Position numbers and translations under genes: made by a program
DNA from: Victivallales bacterium
GTDB lineage: Bacteria; Verrucomicrobiota; Lentisphaeria; Victivallales; GWF2-38-69
Reading direction: 5' to 3'
DNA: 53,988 nucleotides
Assembly: GCA_021733985.1 (NCBI GenBank)
Contig: JAIPJT010000015.1
Location: 1 to 53,988 of the forward strand
The notes under the pieces: generated by a model
The model's input: the letters and a program-made list of their open reading frames with translations, nothing else
Database searches by the model: none
What the model was told of the DNA's origin: nothing
Shown here: piece by piece, positions 15,974-27,973 of the stretch
How positions within the stretch are numbered: the first letter of the stretch is position 1
Layout of the letters: each line of letters opens with the position of its first letter

Positions 15974-17229
15974 ACTTGAAAAATATCAAAAAAGATAAAT
16001 ATCTAAAAAAAAATGATGCTTATATACGGAAAGTATATCCGGCAATAAAAAACAATCGATTTATATATGCAATTGTTATACCTGTGTACAATGAACTTGA
16101 TTATTTTTTTAAGACGTTGGACAGCATACAGAGGAACGACAGAAAATTGCTGAAAAAAACCTTAATTATGCCGGTTATTAATAATCCTGAATGTATAGAC
16201 AGAAATTCAGTCGAATATATTAATAATCAAAGGCTGATAGTTTTGTTAAAAGAATATATACATAATTCGAAGCTTAATTTGTATTTTATAGACTGTTCAA
16301 GCACAAACCAGGGATTGAAGGCCAGGGGAGGTGTAGGAGCAGCAAGAAAAACAGGTATGGATACTGCTTTGAAGTTTCTGGTCTGGGAAAATACGCCTGT
16401 AATCTGCAGCCTTGATGCAGATACTTTAGTAAAAGAAGATTATTTGGCGGAAATAGATGATTTCTTTAAAAAAAACACAAAGATAAACTGTGCAACTGTT
16501 GCATTCAGGCATTTAAGAGACGGAACAGAAGAAGAGTGCAGGGCGATTAAAGCATATGAAATATTTTTGGACTATTATGTGGAAATGCTTAAAAAAGCAA
16601 ATTCTCCTTATGCATATCATGCTGTAGGTTCAACGATAGTTTTTAAAGCAGCTGCATATATAAAGTGCGGCGGAATGAAAATTAATACTGCCGGAGAAGA
16701 TTTTTACTTTCTTCAGGGAATGAGAAAGCTCGGGGAGATAGGACAAATAACAGGTACTGAAGTTTATCAGTCTTCAAGAGTATCCGACAGGGTTCCGTTC
16801 GGAACCGGCAAGGCTGTCGGAGACGCAGTAGACGGAAAGCAGACGTTGTTATATAATCCTGAAATTTTTATTTTGCTTAAAGACTTTCTTGAACAGGTAA
16901 AGAGCTGGATTACCGAAGATGATTTCAGAGATTATACAAAGCTCGAACAAAAAATCAGCACTGAAACTGCAGCTTTTTTAAGGGAATACGATTTCAAAAA
17001 TGTCTGGCTGAAAATAGTAAAAAACAGCTTCGGAATAAATTCAATAAATTCAAAAAACAATCCTGGAAATAAACTGTTACAGTGTTTTAATATATGGTTC
17101 GATGCGTTCAAAACTCTGAAGTTTGTGCATTTTATGGAAAATAATTACCCGGGAAAATTTTACAGAATTCATATTAATGATAAAGGATCTGCTGCAAGAT
17201 GGAATATTCAAAATATATTATCGGAATAG
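15970..17229 (+). CDS. Glycosyltransferase family 2-like protein
   Basis: A 419-residue soluble GT-A-fold protein. It starts with YAIVIPVYNELDYFFKTLDSI, carries a metal-binding-like SLDADT at about residue 156-161 and a later EDFYFLQGMRKLGEI acceptor segment. No membrane segments are evident, so it acts in the cytoplasm or at the membrane face. Sugar and acceptor are unknown. Its end overlaps the Hsp70-like gene by 31 bases, an unusually long coupling that implies co-expression. Confidence 0.78.
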   Translation: MNLKNIKKDKYLKKNDAYIRKVYPAIKNNRFIYAIVIPVYNELDYFFKTLDSIQRNDRKLLKKTLIMPVINNPECIDRNSVEYINNQRLIVLLKEYIHNSKLNLYFIDCSSTNQGLKARGGVGAARKTGMDTALKFLVWENTPVICSLDADTLVKEDYLAEIDDFFKKNTKINCATVAFRHLRDGTEEECRAIKAYEIFLDYYVEMLKKANSPYAYHAVGSTIVFKAAAYIKCGGMKINTAGEDFYFLQGMRKLGEIGQITGTEVYQSSRVSDRVPFGTGKAVGDAVDGKQTLLYNPEIFILLKDFLEQVKSWITEDDFRDYTKLEQKISTETAAFLREYDFKNVWLKIVKNSFGINSINSKNNPGNKLLQCFNIWFDAFKTLKFVHFMENNYPGKFYRIHINDKGSAARWNIQNILSE

Positions 17230-19958
17230 ATTTAGGCACTACAAACAGTGCGGTTACATATGTAGATTTAGAGGAGCGAAATCGGGAAGCTAAAGTTTTT
17301 AAGGTACCTCAGCTGTGTGAACCCGGGGAAGTTGATACAAATGAACTTCTTCCTTCATTCTGTTTTTTCCCGGACAGAAAGATTATACCTGAAAAGATCA
17401 CGGAGTTGCAATGGAAACCAAAACTGGAATATACAGTAGGTATCTATGCCAGAAAACATGGCTCTGCAATGCCGAACAGATTTATTTCTTCTGTAAAATC
17501 ATGGCTGTGTCATGCCGGAGTTGACAGGAAAAAACCTATCCTGCCCTGGGGGAGCAATATACCTGAACTCCAGAAATCACCCATTGAAATTACATCGTAC
17601 TACCTGGCGCATATAAAAAATGCATGGGATTACAAGTTCTCAAAAATTAAAGATATATATGGCAATAAAAGCTTTTTTGCAAACCAGCAGGTTATAATAA
17701 CTGTGCCCGCAAGTTTTGATGAAACGGCAAGAGAGCTGACTATTGAAGCTGCTGAAATAGCCGGATATAAAAATATAAAACTGCTTGAAGAACCGCTTGC
17801 GGCATTTTATTCCTGGCTCGATAAGGAAAACGAAAACTGGAAGGAATATATCAATCCCGGAGACCGTGTACTGGTTGTTGATGTCGGGGGCGGCACCTGC
17901 GACTTTTCCATTATTAAAATGGATGAGAAGGGCGTTCTTTCAAGAACTGCGGCAGGAAACCATCTCCTGCTCGGAGGAGATAATATAGATATTGCTGTTG
18001 CACGTAATATTGAAAAGAAATGGAATAAAAAGCTTTCACACGGTGAATGGCTTATTCTGTGTCAGAATGCCAGAGAAGCAAAAGAAAAACTTTTAAGCCG
18101 TGATATTGATTCTGTTGAAGTCGTTCTTCTGTCGCAGGGCAGCTCTGTGATCGGAGGAAGCCGTAAAGCCGTTGTCAGGAAAAATGATCTAATAAACCTC
18201 CTTAATGAAGGGTTTATTCCGGAAATAGATATAAAATCCAATGCGCCTGCACAGAAAAAAGGACTGCAGACAATGGGCCTCCCTTATGCTTCTGATGCTG
18301 CAATTACAAAGCATCTGCTACAGTTCCTGAGATACTCTCATCAGATATCTGAAAAAATCGGTTCCCGCAGTGACAGTGATAGAGAAGGCGTTTTGTTTCC
18401 GGAAAAAATTCTTTTTAACGGCGGAACAATGGTCCCTGCACTGATGAGGGATAGAATAATCAATATAGTTAATTCGTGGTTTCCCGACAAGAAAATTACC
18501 GAACTTCATTCCAGAAATTTAAGCCTTGCAGTTTCATACGGTGCGTCTTATTACGGAAGGACCAGACTTGGTGACGGGATAAAAGTCAAGAGCGGTACTG
18601 CATTGTCTTATTATCTCCAGATTGATGAGCGTAAAGGTAAAGAGAAACTGATATGCATAATGCCGCGCGGCATAGAAGAAAATATTGATCAGAATTCGGA
18701 AAAGGTTTTTAAACTGATGGCAAATAAAAAAGTTAGATTTCCATTGTACAGCAGTGCGACAAGAATTGGTGACAGAAGCGGGGACATAATACCTTTTGAT
18801 AGTGAAATAACATTTGTTTCATCAATGAATACGGTACTGAAATACGGCAGACAGAACAGTGGAAAAGAAGTGAAAGCATCAATACATTCACTGCTTACAG
18901 AAACAGGTGTTTTAAAAGTATATTTGAAATCACTTCAAAGCACTCACAGTTGGCCGCTTAATTTTGATACACGGCTTATAGGAGAAAGTCTTAACGACAA
19001 AAAAGTAAATAATGAAATTGTCATTGACCAGGGGAAGATAGATACGGCTTGTAAAAAAATTAAAATATATTTTGATTCATCGAATAATTCTGAAAATATT
19101 GTTAAGCAAATTGAAAGTACTGTTGAATTAAAGAAAAAGGAATGGCCGCTGCAGTGTCTGAGAAAATTTGCAGATGCTCTTATTACAGTGCCTTATGAAA
19201 CATTAAGGCTGCCTGCGAAAGAGGCTAAATGGCTTAATTTAACCGGATATTGTCTTAGACCCGGTTTCGGTGATCCGGAAGACGGATTAAGACTGAAAAA
19301 GATCTGGGGACTCTGGTATAAAAAAATGAACAACCCCAAAAATGCTGCCGTTGTTTCTGAATGGTGGATATTCTGGAGGCGTGTAGTCTCCGGACTCAAT
19401 AACGGACATCATAGAACGATTTCCCAGGAACTGGTAAAAAAATTATGCCCAAAGGGTAAATTTATGAAAAATATAAAGATCGGCACTCAGGCCAAGGCTG
19501 AAATGTGGAGATGTCTCGGGGCTGTTGAACTGATTTTACCTCAAAAGAAGCAGGAAATCGCTAAAGCTCTGCTTGAACACGTAAATAAACTTGAGAGCTA
19601 CGAATACTGGGTGCTTGCCAGGCTGGGGAACAGGCGGCTTTTCCACGCACCGGTTAACAATATTGTACCCTCGGAGAATGTTCAAAAATGGCTTGATAAA
19701 ATACTGAACTCAAAGCATTCCCCTAAAACTTTGAATGAGAAACTGTTTGCAGTTTCATGTATGGCCCGACTGACTGACAACAGAGCTGTTAATGTTGATG
19801 AGGAGCATCTCAATGCGGTTTTAGACTACCTGAAAAAACATAAGGCATCGGTTAACTGGATAGAGCATTTGAAAGCTGTTAGAAAAGATTCTGTCTCTGA
19901 ACAGGGTAGAATTGCAGGGGATTCTATTCCGCTTGGCTTAACACTTGAAGAAAAATAA
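17199..19958 (+). CDS. Hsp70 (DnaK-like) family protein with extended C-terminus
   Basis: A 919-residue protein. Its N-terminal ATPase has IGIDLGTTNSAV (8-19), VVDVGGGTCDFSI and FNGGTMVPALM, the three nucleotide-binding motifs of the actin/Hsp70 fold. After about residue 470 the substrate-binding part is unlike DnaK. The last ~300 residues (from EWPLQCLRKFADAL) form a helical domain probably matching the DUF3731-type extension seen on some bacterial Hsp70 paralogues (inference). It lacks a DnaK EEVD-type tail. No DnaJ or GrpE is adjacent. Confidence 0.85.
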   Translation: MEYSKYIIGIDLGTTNSAVTYVDLEERNREAKVFKVPQLCEPGEVDTNELLPSFCFFPDRKIIPEKITELQWKPKLEYTVGIYARKHGSAMPNRFISSVKSWLCHAGVDRKKPILPWGSNIPELQKSPIEITSYYLAHIKNAWDYKFSKIKDIYGNKSFFANQQVIITVPASFDETARELTIEAAEIAGYKNIKLLEEPLAAFYSWLDKENENWKEYINPGDRVLVVDVGGGTCDFSIIKMDEKGVLSRTAAGNHLLLGGDNIDIAVARNIEKKWNKKLSHGEWLILCQNAREAKEKLLSRDIDSVEVVLLSQGSSVIGGSRKAVVRKNDLINLLNEGFIPEIDIKSNAPAQKKGLQTMGLPYASDAAITKHLLQFLRYSHQISEKIGSRSDSDREGVLFPEKILFNGGTMVPALMRDRIINIVNSWFPDKKITELHSRNLSLAVSYGASYYGRTRLGDGIKVKSGTALSYYLQIDERKGKEKLICIMPRGIEENIDQNSEKVFKLMANKKVRFPLYSSATRIGDRSGDIIPFDSEITFVSSMNTVLKYGRQNSGKEVKASIHSLLTETGVLKVYLKSLQSTHSWPLNFDTRLIGESLNDKKVNNEIVIDQGKIDTACKKIKIYFDSSNNSENIVKQIESTVELKKKEWPLQCLRKFADALITVPYETLRLPAKEAKWLNLTGYCLRPGFGDPEDGLRLKKIWGLWYKKMNNPKNAAVVSEWWIFWRRVVSGLNNGHHRTISQELVKKLCPKGKFMKNIKIGTQAKAEMWRCLGAVELILPQKKQEIAKALLEHVNKLESYEYWVLARLGNRRLFHAPVNNIVPSENVQKWLDKILNSKHSPKTLNEKLFAVSCMARLTDNRAVNVDEEHLNAVLDYLKKHKASVNWIEHLKAVRKDSVSEQGRIAGDSIPLGLTLEEK

Positions 19959-23504: not shown

Positions 23505-24590
23505 ATGAAGATATTTAACTTTGCTTCAGGACCGGCGATGATGCCTAAAACTGTGCTGAATAAAGTGAAGGATGAATTTACCGATTTCAATAATTACGGT
23601 GTTAGCATAATCGAAGTTTCCCATAGATCATATGAATTTAAAAAGATAATTGAACGTGCCGAAAGAAATATCAGAGATATAATGAAGATTGGTGATAATT
23701 ATGCTGTGTGTTTTATTCAGGGCGGTGCGAGTCTTCAGCATGCAATGATTCCTATGAATTTAATGAAACCGGACGGATTCGCAGAATATGCGGATTCCGG
23801 TCACTGGTCAGGTGTGGTTATTAAAGAGGCTGAAAAATTCGGAAAGGTTGAAGTTATCGGTTCAAGCAAGAATACAAACTACGACAGAGTCCCGAATATT
23901 AGAAAATGGAAACCCGACAACAATTCTTCGTATCTTCATATTACAACAAATGATGCTACCCACGGGACACAGTATCATACTATACCTGAATTGGGCAACG
24001 GGGTACCGCTGATAGGTGATATGTCTGCCGATATTATGACAAGAGAAATTGATGTAAACCAGTTCGGGGTAATTTATGCTGCTACTTCACGAGTTATGGG
24101 GCCTACCGGCTTGACTATTGTTATAATCCGCAAAGACCTTGTGAGTCGGTCTGAAGGGAAAAATCTGCCTTTGATGCTTGATTATAAAACATATGTTGAT
24201 GAGGGGTCTCTGCATAACACTCCTCCGACTTTTTCGATATACCTTTTAAAGCTTGTTACAGACTGGATTGTTGAAAAAGGCGGAATGCAGGAAATGGAGA
24301 AAATTAATTCTCTGAAGTCCAATGTACTCTATGAGAGAATAGATTCTACAGATTTTTATCAGACTTTAGTTGAACCTTCTCACAGATCAAGGGTCAATGT
24401 TGTGTTCAAAACTCCGAGTGCAGAGCTGGACAGAAAATTTTTGGATGAAGCCAAGAACTGCGGTTTGATTGGCCTCAGCGGGCACAGGTCTGTGAATAAA
24501 CTAAGAGCGAGTATGTATAATGCCATGCCACTTGAAGGAGTCGAAGTTTTAATAGATTTTATGAATGATTTTGAGAAAAAGTATGGATAA
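23505..24590 (+). CDS. serC: SerC-like phosphoserine aminotransferase homologue lacking the PLP lysine
   Basis: A 361-residue SerC homologue (fold type I), full length and well conserved: NFASGPAMMP start, SHRS (39-42), PLP-phosphate GGAS (73-76), GDMSAD (171-176, Asp172 to the pyridine N) and GHRSVNKLRASMYNAMP near the end. The expected Schiff-base lysine in AGAQKNIGPAG is replaced: this protein reads AATSRVMGPTG, so Arg196 stands where Lys should be. Several neighbouring residues changed too, so a one-base error is unlikely. Without lysine it cannot form the normal internal aldimine. It may be inactive, a different PLP or ligand protein, or an unusual enzyme. The amrS start overlaps its stop. 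Confidence 0.88.
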   Translation: MKIFNFASGPAMMPKTVLNKVKDEFTDFNNYGVSIIEVSHRSYEFKKIIERAERNIRDIMKIGDNYAVCFIQGGASLQHAMIPMNLMKPDGFAEYADSGHWSGVVIKEAEKFGKVEVIGSSKNTNYDRVPNIRKWKPDNNSSYLHITTNDATHGTQYHTIPELGNGVPLIGDMSADIMTREIDVNQFGVIYAATSRVMGPTGLTIVIIRKDLVSRSEGKNLPLMLDYKTYVDEGSLHNTPPTFSIYLLKLVTDWIVEKGGMQEMEKINSLKSNVLYERIDSTDFYQTLVEPSHRSRVNVVFKTPSAELDRKFLDEAKNCGLIGLSGHRSVNKLRASMYNAMPLEGVEVLIDFMNDFEKKYG

Positions 24591-25482
24591 AGCAAATAAC
24601 AACTTCAAAGAAGCCCGTTTTTACCATTTACTACCGGATGGCAGTAAAAAAATAAAATGTGAATTGTGCCCTCAAAGCTGTGTGATCTCACCAGACAGCA
24701 GCGGATTCTGCAAAGTAAGGCATAATTTTTCAGGGAAACTGTACTCTCTTGTATACGGATACCCGACTGCTCTTCAAATAGATCCTATAGAAAAAAAACC
24801 TTTTGCCGAGTATTTAAACGGAACAACCACTTTTTCAATTGGAACTTACGGCTGCAATCTGGACTGCCAGTTTTGTCAGAATTATCATTTATCTTGCGGG
24901 AAACCTTCTTTGGACGTTTCCCGAAAAGATTTTATTTCTCCTGTCAGGATAGTCGATAATGCTGTTAAAAATAAATGCAGGTCAGTTGCATTTACATATA
25001 ATGAACCTTCTATATGGGTTGAATATGCTGCTGATATTGCGCTTAGAGCCAGAGAGAATAATTTGTCTTCAGTTCTAATTTCAAACGGTTTTATCAATAG
25101 GGCAGCGGCAGAAGAGTTTTATCCGCTGATCGATGCTGCAAATATTGATATGAAAGGTTTTTCTGAAGAATTTTACAGCGACCTCACAAAAGGCAGGTTA
25201 AGTACTGTACTTGAATCAATAAAACTGTTATATTCTCTTAATAAACATATTGAAATAACTAATTTAGTGATCCCCGGTAAAAATGATTCAGATCAAATAA
25301 TCAGAGGTTTTCTTGAATGGGTAGATGTAAATCTTGACAAAAATGTACCTCTTCATTTTTCAGCTTTTTTCCCTGCCTATAAACTTAAAAATGTTCCTCC
25401 GACTCCAGCAGCAAAGCTATATGAGATCAGAGATCACGCTATAAGTATGGGATTTACATCCGTATATTTGGGGAATGTTTAA
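24583..25482 (+). CDS. amrS: AmmeMemoRadiSam system radical SAM enzyme
   Basis: A 299-residue radical SAM protein. It has the SAM cluster motif CNLDCQFC (Cys91, 95, 98). The N-terminus has a Cys-rich entry (C26, C29, C33, C43), and KKPFAEYLNG...FSIGTYG is typical of AmrS. The AmmeMemoRadiSam group includes AMMECR1 and MEMO1 homologues, neither in this window. The ATG overlaps the serC stop (ATGGATAA at 24583-24590), indicating translational coupling to the lysine-less SerC. Confidence 0.88.
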   Translation: MDKANNNFKEARFYHLLPDGSKKIKCELCPQSCVISPDSSGFCKVRHNFSGKLYSLVYGYPTALQIDPIEKKPFAEYLNGTTTFSIGTYGCNLDCQFCQNYHLSCGKPSLDVSRKDFISPVRIVDNAVKNKCRSVAFTYNEPSIWVEYAADIALRARENNLSSVLISNGFINRAAAEEFYPLIDAANIDMKGFSEEFYSDLTKGRLSTVLESIKLLYSLNKHIEITNLVIPGKNDSDQIIRGFLEWVDVNLDKNVPLHFSAFFPAYKLKNVPPTPAAKLYEIRDHAISMGFTSVYLGNV

Positions 25483-25497
25483 CCCGGGTTACTTGTT

Positions 25498-26304
25498 ATG
25501 CCGCATGCAGTGCTCAAAAATAATATATCTATGTATTATGATATTTCTTATAAATCCGGGAACAGTGAATATTTATTTTTGATTCCGGGCCTTACAAGCA
25601 ATTCCTTAGCTTTCTCCTACATTATCCCCAGGCTGTACAGGACTTTTAATGTAATTTCAGTTGATAACCGCGGAGTTGGCAGAACAATTTACGGTAAAAT
25701 GAATTTTTCCATAGAGGATATGGCTGAAGATATAATAATGCTTATGGATTACCTGGAAATAGAAAGGGCTGATTTTCTTGGACATTCAATGGGCGGATAC
25801 ATTGCACAGGTTATAGCTGCATCATATCCGCATAGAATCAGAAAAATGGTTTTAAGCTGTTCATCGACAGGATTATCTGTTGCGGGAAAAAAGATTTTAC
25901 AGAATTTATATAATGATAGAAGTTCCGGGAAAATTTCTTTCAGGGAATTCAACAGGATAATTTTAAAATATTTTACTTCGCCCCTGATTTATGAGGATGA
26001 CTTTATGCGCGAAGCAATGCTCGATTTTATGGATAATAACCCCTACAAACAACTCATTGACGGCTTTAAAAGCCAGGTCGAAGCATGTAAAAACTTTAAT
26101 ATGGGCAATAAACTTGGCAGGATAAAAACCGAAACTCTTGTTATTACAGGGGAAATTGACTCTATTGCCACAATTGATGATGCGATAGAGCTTAACAGTG
26201 GTATTGAAGATTCTGCTTTGAAAGTATTAAAAGGTGCGGGGCACTTGCCTTATATAGAAAAAACCAGCGAATATGTTGACACAGTTCTTGAGTTTCTTAA
26301 TTAA
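25498..26304 (+). CDS. Alpha/beta hydrolase
   Basis: A 268-residue cytosolic alpha/beta hydrolase with nucleophile elbow GHSMGG, oxyanion region IPGLTSNSLAF, DNRGVGRT early and a C-terminal GAGHLPYIEKT histidine. Its family includes 3-oxoadipate enol-lactonase and esterases. The substrate is unknown. It starts 15 bp after amrS on the same strand, so it probably belongs to the serC-amrS operon. Confidence 0.85.
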   Translation: MPHAVLKNNISMYYDISYKSGNSEYLFLIPGLTSNSLAFSYIIPRLYRTFNVISVDNRGVGRTIYGKMNFSIEDMAEDIIMLMDYLEIERADFLGHSMGGYIAQVIAASYPHRIRKMVLSCSSTGLSVAGKKILQNLYNDRSSGKISFREFNRIILKYFTSPLIYEDDFMREAMLDFMDNNPYKQLIDGFKSQVEACKNFNMGNKLGRIKTETLVITGEIDSIATIDDAIELNSGIEDSALKVLKGAGHLPYIEKTSEYVDTVLEFLN

Positions 26305-26586: not shown

Positions 26587-26653
26587 GGAGAAGATGGTTT
26601 ACCCGAAATTGCTTTAATTTGAATAACAATATTTTTACTCATTGAGGATTTAT

Positions 26654-27973
26654 ATGTCATTCCCTCAGCTTTCTAAACATTTTGAAACAAAAATACCTTC
26701 TGCTGTAAGATTGGCGCAGTTGGAATATAATAAGAGGACTGATAACGTCGAAGCAGTAAATACAGCTATTGGAAATGTGGCTATGCCACTTCATCCTGCA
26801 ATACAGAAAAGGATGTTTGCTTTGAGTTCAGTTGAGTGTCCATTTCATGCTGGGGTTGTTAAGTATACACCAACTGCCGGAGAAAAAGAAACCAATAATG
26901 CTTTCAAAAACGTTATAGCTGCCAGCGGCTTCAGCGCTGATAATTTATATTCGATGGTTACAGATGGAGCAAGTCAGGCGATAGAATTAATAATTACCGG
27001 CATATGCGGAGCTGCAGGATCCGATGAAAAACCACTTTTAGTTATTGATCCCGCATATACCAATTATATGGCTTTTGCGGAGAGGCTGGGACGAAAAGTT
27101 ATTTCTGTTTCCCGGGAATTAAGCGAAAATGGTAAATTCTGTATGCCTTGCACAGAAAGCCTCGAGGAAAAAATAAAAAAATATAATCCCGGGGGGCTCG
27201 TTGTTATACCCTATGATAATCCGACCGGGAATTATTATGACAGGGATGTTATGCAGAGGCTTGCTCTGATTTGTGTGAGAAATAATATATGGATGATAAG
27301 CGACGAAGCATACAGGGAGCTGAATTACAACGATGTTGAACCTTCAAGTATTTGGGGGATAACAGATAAAGAGGTGCCCGGAATAGAAAATAGAAGAATC
27401 AGTATTGAAACAACTTCTAAAATATGGAATGGATGCGGATTAAGAATAGGAGCTATAATCACTGATAATAAAAAGTTTCATGAAAAGGCTGTGGCAGAAT
27501 ATACAGCTAATTTATGTTCAAATGCTATCGGACAATATATATTCGGTGCAATTGCTCATGAGAAAATACCGGATTTAAGAAAATGGTTCGAAACTCAGAG
27601 GCATTATTACAAATCTATGATGAATGAATTAAAATTTGAACTCGAAAATAGGCTGCCCGGAGTAATAGTATCTGCCCCTGATGCTGCAATTTATGCTGTT
27701 ATTGATGTAAAAAATATTGCCCGGCCCGGATTTGATTCTTCTGACTTTGCTTTATATTGTGCCGGTGAAGGGGTGGTCAACATCAATAATGAACTCTATA
27801 CCCTGCTATTGGCGCCAATGTCCGGTTTCTATTCTAACAAAGAAAATGGAAGTAATCCTGGTAAAACCCAGATGCGTATTGCATTTGTTGAAAAACCGGA
27901 AAAAATGATTCTTCTTCCACATTTATTTGTTGAGCTGTTCCATCAGTACGAAAACACAGGAATAAAGCTATAA
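26654..27973 (+). CDS. Class I/II PLP-dependent aminotransferase
   Basis: A 439-residue fold-type I aminotransferase with YDNPTGNYYD and SDEAYREL segments, and the PLP lysine in ETTSKIWNGCG (Lys256) followed by LRIG. It therefore retains the catalytic residue lost in the SerC homologue upstream. The specificity cannot be told: aromatic, alanine or aspartate-type are possible. GAGGA lies just before the chosen ATG at 26654. Confidence 0.87.
   Translation: MSFPQLSKHFETKIPSAVRLAQLEYNKRTDNVEAVNTAIGNVAMPLHPAIQKRMFALSSVECPFHAGVVKYTPTAGEKETNNAFKNVIAASGFSADNLYSMVTDGASQAIELIITGICGAAGSDEKPLLVIDPAYTNYMAFAERLGRKVISVSRELSENGKFCMPCTESLEEKIKKYNPGGLVVIPYDNPTGNYYDRDVMQRLALICVRNNIWMISDEAYRELNYNDVEPSSIWGITDKEVPGIENRRISIETTSKIWNGCGLRIGAIITDNKKFHEKAVAEYTANLCSNAIGQYIFGAIAHEKIPDLRKWFETQRHYYKSMMNELKFELENRLPGVIVSAPDAAIYAVIDVKNIARPGFDSSDFALYCAGEGVVNINNELYTLLLAPMSGFYSNKENGSNPGKTQMRIAFVEKPEKMILLPHLFVELFHQYENTGIKL

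Follow-up and report, generated by a model that had tools for sequence, protein, structure and literature searches.

A full-length SerC homolog with arginine in place of the Schiff-base lysine in a Victivallales bacterium that carries a second, lysine-bearing SerC

The closest described counterpart of the protein studied here, SerC1, is SerC itself, the phosphoserine/phosphohydroxythreonine aminotransferase (models NF003764 and TIGR01364; solved structures 1bjn, 1w23, 4xk1, and 6czx). SerC1 shares with it homology over the full length, the fold (TM score of 0.95 to 0.96 between its AlphaFold2 model and solved SerC), the Trp, the Asp, and the phosphate loop of the cofactor site, the Asn and Thr contributed by the dimer mate, and the substrate-binding His and Arg residues, but it lacks the Schiff-base lysine, and the cofactor-contacting Thr and Gln are replaced. 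Arginine at the Schiff-base lysine is also the substitution of K258R aspartate aminotransferase, a laboratory mutant reportedly described by Toney and Kirsch in 1991, which, unlike SerC1, was engineered and has an otherwise intact site. Natural proteins that, like SerC1, have a PLP-enzyme fold and an intact gene but no conserved lysine are known from families other than SerC, namely, Rv3778c of M. tuberculosis, which is related to cysteine desulfurases (PMC12910592), and LCB1 of serine palmitoyltransferase. Both are kept as noncatalytic proteins; LCB1 has a known catalytic partner, whereas none is known for SerC1. The ColD/E1 3-dehydratases resemble SerC1 in combining an aminotransferase fold with a replaced lysine, but there the replacement is His and the chemistry is PMP dependent and acts on sugar nucleotides (PMC8987622), while SerC1 has Arg and no such context.

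SerC1 is encoded on the forward strand at positions 23505 to 24590 of the window, i.e., the whole stretch of 53,988 nucleotides that was analyzed. Translation gave 361 codons with no internal stop, and the disrupted reading frame expected of a pseudogene was thus not observed. The protein scored above the curated cut-offs of both NF003764 (460 bits; cut-off, 253) and TIGR01364 (443.9 bits; cut-off, 443.6), aligned end to end with the nearest solved SerC chains (41 to 44% identity), and was 43% identical to E. coli SerC. Its AlphaFold2 model had a mean pLDDT of 88, with drops to 74 at residues 191 to 200 and to 67 to 70 at residues 211 to 240. In the tree, the SerC1 proteins of the window's family (f1) formed one clade (99*) nested inside the SerC proteins of the order; judged by this placement, SerC1 descends vertically from the order's own serC. 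Promoter and terminator scans returned matches at chance level only.

We then compared the active-site segment, AATSRVMGPTG (residues 192 to 202; positions 24078 to 24110, forward strand), with the solved SerC structures and E. coli SerC, against which it aligned without gaps. Arg196 (CGA, 24090 to 24092) falls on the PLP lysine (E. coli Lys198, AtPSAT1 Lys265), which is K in all other aligned SerC proteins, in agreement with the reading of this motif against AGAQKNIGPAG in the earlier note. The same note had counted four further differences around the lysine; the surrounding change is real, but four is an undercount, since, leaving the lysine aside, the segment departs from that of E. coli at six positions (193, 194, 195, 197, 198, and 201). 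Positions 193, 194, and 197 are likewise altered (Ser, Thr, and Val) in the lysine-bearing orthologs of the family, and Thr201 is also present in one of these relatives, G002.

Cofactor contacts were assigned from the contact list of Arabidopsis PSAT1 (PMC6043687). Besides the aldimine lysine, two direct contacts are lost: Ser195 (TCA, 24087 to 24089) stands at the Gln that binds the PLP phosphate (AtPSAT1 Gln264), and Ala151 (23955 to 23957) stands at the Thr that binds PLP O3' (AtPSAT1 Thr221, E. coli Thr153), these positions being Q and T, respectively, in 115/115 full-length sequences of the order. In addition, Gly193 is changed to Ala and the cationic Lys104 to Val, and no spare lysine lies one or two residues from Arg196 in the active-site segment. 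Retained at the cofactor site are the stacking Trp101, Asp172 (24018 to 24020), which is the partner of PLP N1, and Ala75, Ser76, and Ser174, so that the earlier description of a full-length protein with a conserved phosphate loop and Asp172 held; the dimer-mate residues Asn238, Thr239, and Gln72 and all of the substrate anchors checked (His40, Arg41, His327, Arg328, and Arg334) are kept as well. Because the aldimine Lys, the Thr, and the Gln are lost together, and because every catalytically active aminotransferase is stated to have the lysine without exception (PMC9309667), a normal transamination cycle is not expected of SerC1, as had been proposed. By descent, SerC1 belongs to the SerC family, but its annotation as a functional phosphoserine aminotransferase is not warranted.

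The earlier note had suggested aligning the lysine position in relatives. Within the order, 137 genomes were searched, and 123 distinct SerC sequences were extracted outside the window's family; a second set comprised 80 SerC sequences from other bacteria, mostly Bacillota, and E. coli SerC. The lysine column was K in every one of these sequences. Of the 215 rows in the alignment, 213 had K and 2 had R, both of the latter being SerC1 itself, entered twice. In a set from the class and phylum, which took in divergent SerC proteins and genomes carrying SerC twice, 64/64 rows covering the site had K, although some rows repeat one gene. Both orthologs of SerC1 in family f1, from G001 (L003, 1209 to 2291) and G002 (L019, 1501 to 2586), keep the lysine in the motif ASTQKVLGP and are 61 and 54% identical to SerC1. 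A contig search for closer relatives returned relatives of 41 to 45% identity only and no member of the genus, which is represented here by the window's genome alone. No other Lys-less SerC was found among the more than 260 sequences compared or in the literature searched. Relatives with Lys at this site, which the earlier note had named as a refuting outcome, were thus observed. As the lysine is present in all relatives aligned, its loss is, on this sampling, specific to the window's lineage; a conserved Lys-less SerC clade is ruled out by the two family orthologs and all other sequences. The G001 and G002 orthologs share unusual residues at the near-invariant sites 179, 193, 197, 297, 325, and 337, hinting that the substrate or role of SerC1 may already have changed within the family at a time when the lysine was still present.

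A second, lysine-containing serC in the same genome, which had been suggested as a check, was found on contig C28 (10058 to 11119). Its product, SerC2, is 39% identical to SerC1 and has the intact motif GGAQKNLGPAG. The gene adjoins a serA homolog and a gene that, from such clusters in general, we take to be DUF1015-like, and the same serA-serC-DUF1015 arrangement occurs in G001 and G002, hence in 3/3 genomes of the family. A second full-length SerC was absent from all other genomes of the order (137 searched), most other double matches coming from fragments or from sequence repeated at the ends of contigs. In the tree, the SerC2 proteins of the family form a separate, distant clade on a long branch, of which the natural reading is that SerC2 was probably acquired from outside. 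SerC is also used in the DXP-dependent vitamin B6 route (PMC9997740). PdxA and PdxJ were not found in 3/3 genomes of the family, a provisional result given assemblies of about 96% completeness but one that recurs across the three genomes; both proteins were present in 3/4 order relatives checked. PdxS is carried by G001 and G002, and in the window's assembly (about 96% complete) neither PdxJ, PdxA, nor PdxS was found. The window's bacterium encodes PLP enzymes, yet it may be without de novo vitamin B6 synthesis. A search for serB in seven genomes gave no match above the cut-off in any of them and consequently says nothing about serine synthesis. Since SerC2 is present in all three family genomes and PdxA and PdxJ were not found there, the ancestral serC is, as far as gene content indicates, redundant before the loss of its lysine.

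We next considered the neighborhood of serC1. The adjacent gene encodes AmrS, an AmmeMemoRadiSam-type radical SAM enzyme (24565 to 25482, forward strand; TIGR04337, 307.7 bits; cut-off, 220), and is followed by a gene for an alpha/beta-fold hydrolase (25498 to 26304, forward strand) that did not reach the cut-off of any NCBIfam model shown and is also found downstream of amrS in G002. The likely amrS start, ATG at 24583, overlaps the SerC1 stop, TAA at 24588 to 24590 (ATGGATAA). The same junction in G001 and G002 (ATGGCTGA) has the same kind of ATG/stop overlap, with a SerC1 that bears the lysine. Beyond these two relatives, amrS also neighbors a serC that encodes the lysine in about 13 further members of the order (loci L004, L006, L008, L010, L012 to L015, L018, L021, L022, L039, and L040), and the linkage is thus not specific to the Lys-less SerC. 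Being present with lysine-bearing SerC across the order, the serC-amrS neighborhood is, by this distribution, ancestral and older than the lysine loss, and it is therefore uninformative on recruitment after that loss. The proposal that SerC1 may have been recruited as a partner of AmrS, as far as it was drawn from linkage, is thus not supported. The overlap nevertheless suggests that the two genes are translationally coupled, in which case disruption of serC1 should affect translation of amrS, and the SerC1 frame may stay open for this reason.

Several other genes were recorded. Two Memo-family homologs lie away from amrS, L215 (C62, 38592 to 39401) and L216 (C21, 12358 to 13179), and one of these two, which lies within an open frame of 510 codons, may be a fusion. 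In the window itself, two genes downstream, a further aminotransferase-fold gene (26642 to 27973) has an apparently intact lysine motif, TTSKIWNG, but its product scores under the cut-off of every NCBIfam model shown. At 17199 to 19958, a protein of 919 amino acids looks Hsp70-like by its N-terminal GIDLGTTNSAV and has a long C-terminal extension.

We then analyzed how the SerC1 sequence has changed. Of the 48 unique rare residues of SerC1, 12 fell in the quartile of sites with the highest conservation, compared to 1/28 and 4/42 for the orthologs (Fisher P = 0.014 against the pooled orthologs and 0.095 against G002 alone). The unique substitutions of SerC1 are spread evenly over the conservation classes, as under drift. 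AmrS of the same genomes showed no such shift (3/30 versus 1/30 and 3/24). When SerC1 change was modeled as a mixture of the orthologs' pattern and simulated neutral change, the neutral share was 0.69 (0.33 to 1.0) and a share of zero was rejected (2ΔlnL = 17.2). Relative-rate (Tajima) tests, mostly not significant, indicated no general acceleration of SerC1 versus G001 and, versus G002, if anything fewer changes in SerC1. Under the estimated drift, only about two stops would be expected in SerC1 and the probability of none is 0.14 to 0.39, so that the intact frame is weak counterevidence to decay. On the whole SerC1 branch, omega = 1 was rejected with a difference of about 545 log units. Given the saturation of dS and the instability of the branch estimates, this shows only an older period of constraint, and relaxation cannot be dated from dN/dS. 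The earlier statement that selection has kept the fold thus applies to the entire branch and agrees with the confidence of the model, but at the most conserved sites the substitutions point to relaxed or changed constraint. The data fit normal constraint followed by relaxation as well as changed constraint at catalytic sites, and the two are not firmly separated.

Most likely, SerC1 does not belong to a new enzyme system but is a leftover, either dead or put to another use. In its specific form, the account we lean toward, and consider somewhat probable, is that SerC1 is a nontransaminating relict whose frame is held by coupling to amrS and by limited time. Both known jobs of SerC1 would have been removed in family f1, SerC2 making serine and the DXP-dependent B6 route being missing. 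In the window's genus, the redundant protein would then have lost its Schiff-base lysine together with the Thr and Gln contacts to the cofactor, leaving it presumably unable to run the normal transamination cycle, a relict in transition. Its frame would be intact because the stop overlaps the amrS start, so that a frameshift or nonsense mutation would disturb amrS expression, and also because the loss would not be very old. Against this account stand the lack of any stop, frameshift, or indel in SerC1, an overall rate that is not raised versus the orthologs, the rejection of omega = 1 on the branch, and the retention of the substrate-anchoring His and Arg residues. The main rival is a repurposed pseudoenzyme that would keep the fold and a cationic pocket and, without transaminating, serve as a sensor, store, or scaffold, its ligand being a metabolite that is phosphorylated or acidic, or noncovalently bound PLP or PMP. 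In its favor, Trp101, Asp172, the phosphate cup (Ala75, Ser76, and Ser174), and the substrate anchors His40, Arg41, His327, Arg328, and Arg334 are kept, the frame is intact and the SerC fold is predicted with high confidence, and the lysine-keeping orthologs are altered at near-invariant sites 193, 197, 297, 325, and 337, which suggests that the role had begun to shift earlier. The drift-like spread of the unique substitutions argues against it, as do Lys104, which by alignment lies in the cationic pocket of AtPSAT1 and is Val in SerC1, and the occurrence of the Lys-less state in no relative. We consider repurposing possible, though clearly not the favored outcome.

In SerC, each active site is completed by residues of the other protomer, and a lysine-bearing SerC2 is present in the same genome; SerC1 could accordingly be the noncatalytic subunit of a SerC1-SerC2 heterodimer, its Arg protomer completing or regulating the site of the Lys protomer, for which hLCB1, which has no PLP lysine and pairs with hLCB2, is a precedent (PMC3794620). 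The trans-acting residues Asn238, Thr239, His40, Arg41, and Gln72 are kept in 5/5 cases and the losses fall on cis-acting residues, but this contrast involves very few residues, and the two proteins are only 39% identical and encoded at separate loci, which makes such a pairing unlikely. Taken in the broader form of either a regulatory or structural subunit pairing with SerC2 or a Lys-less SerC sensing a phosphorylated metabolite, a positive function appears rather doubtful. It is more unlikely still that SerC1 is a lysine-independent PMP enzyme working in the manner of the ColD/E1 3-dehydratases, where the acid/base would be Arg196 or some other residue: aminotransferase-fold enzymes with His for Lys and a PMP cofactor do exist (PMC8987622), but in SerC1 the Thr and Gln contacts to the cofactor are gone as well and no sugar-nucleotide pathway gene adjoins it. 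Arginine is, in addition, a poor general base, which counts against this chemistry. An error of sequencing or assembly over the active-site codons might be suspected from a single draft assembly of 71 contigs and from one genome for the genus; however, the Lys codon differs by at least two bases (CGA versus AAA or AAG), and Ala151 and Ser195 (TCA) are changed independently, so that a single miscall would not suffice. With several multibase changes at cofactor contacts in an undisturbed frame, we rejected this explanation as highly improbable.

SerC1 would represent a clean natural case of a PLP enzyme of an essential pathway losing its lysine after becoming redundant, in which relatives show what the ancestral form looked like before the loss, which gene replaced it, and that the second pathway has gone. 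It also calls for caution in automatic annotation, since SerC1 is called a phosphoserine transaminase, passing both curated cut-offs, despite the lost catalytic residue. If SerC1 is functional, it would be a SerC pseudoenzyme, of a kind not met in the sequences or the literature searched, and if it acts as a subunit or a sensor, this pseudoenzyme would have evolved naturally and would have a positive function.
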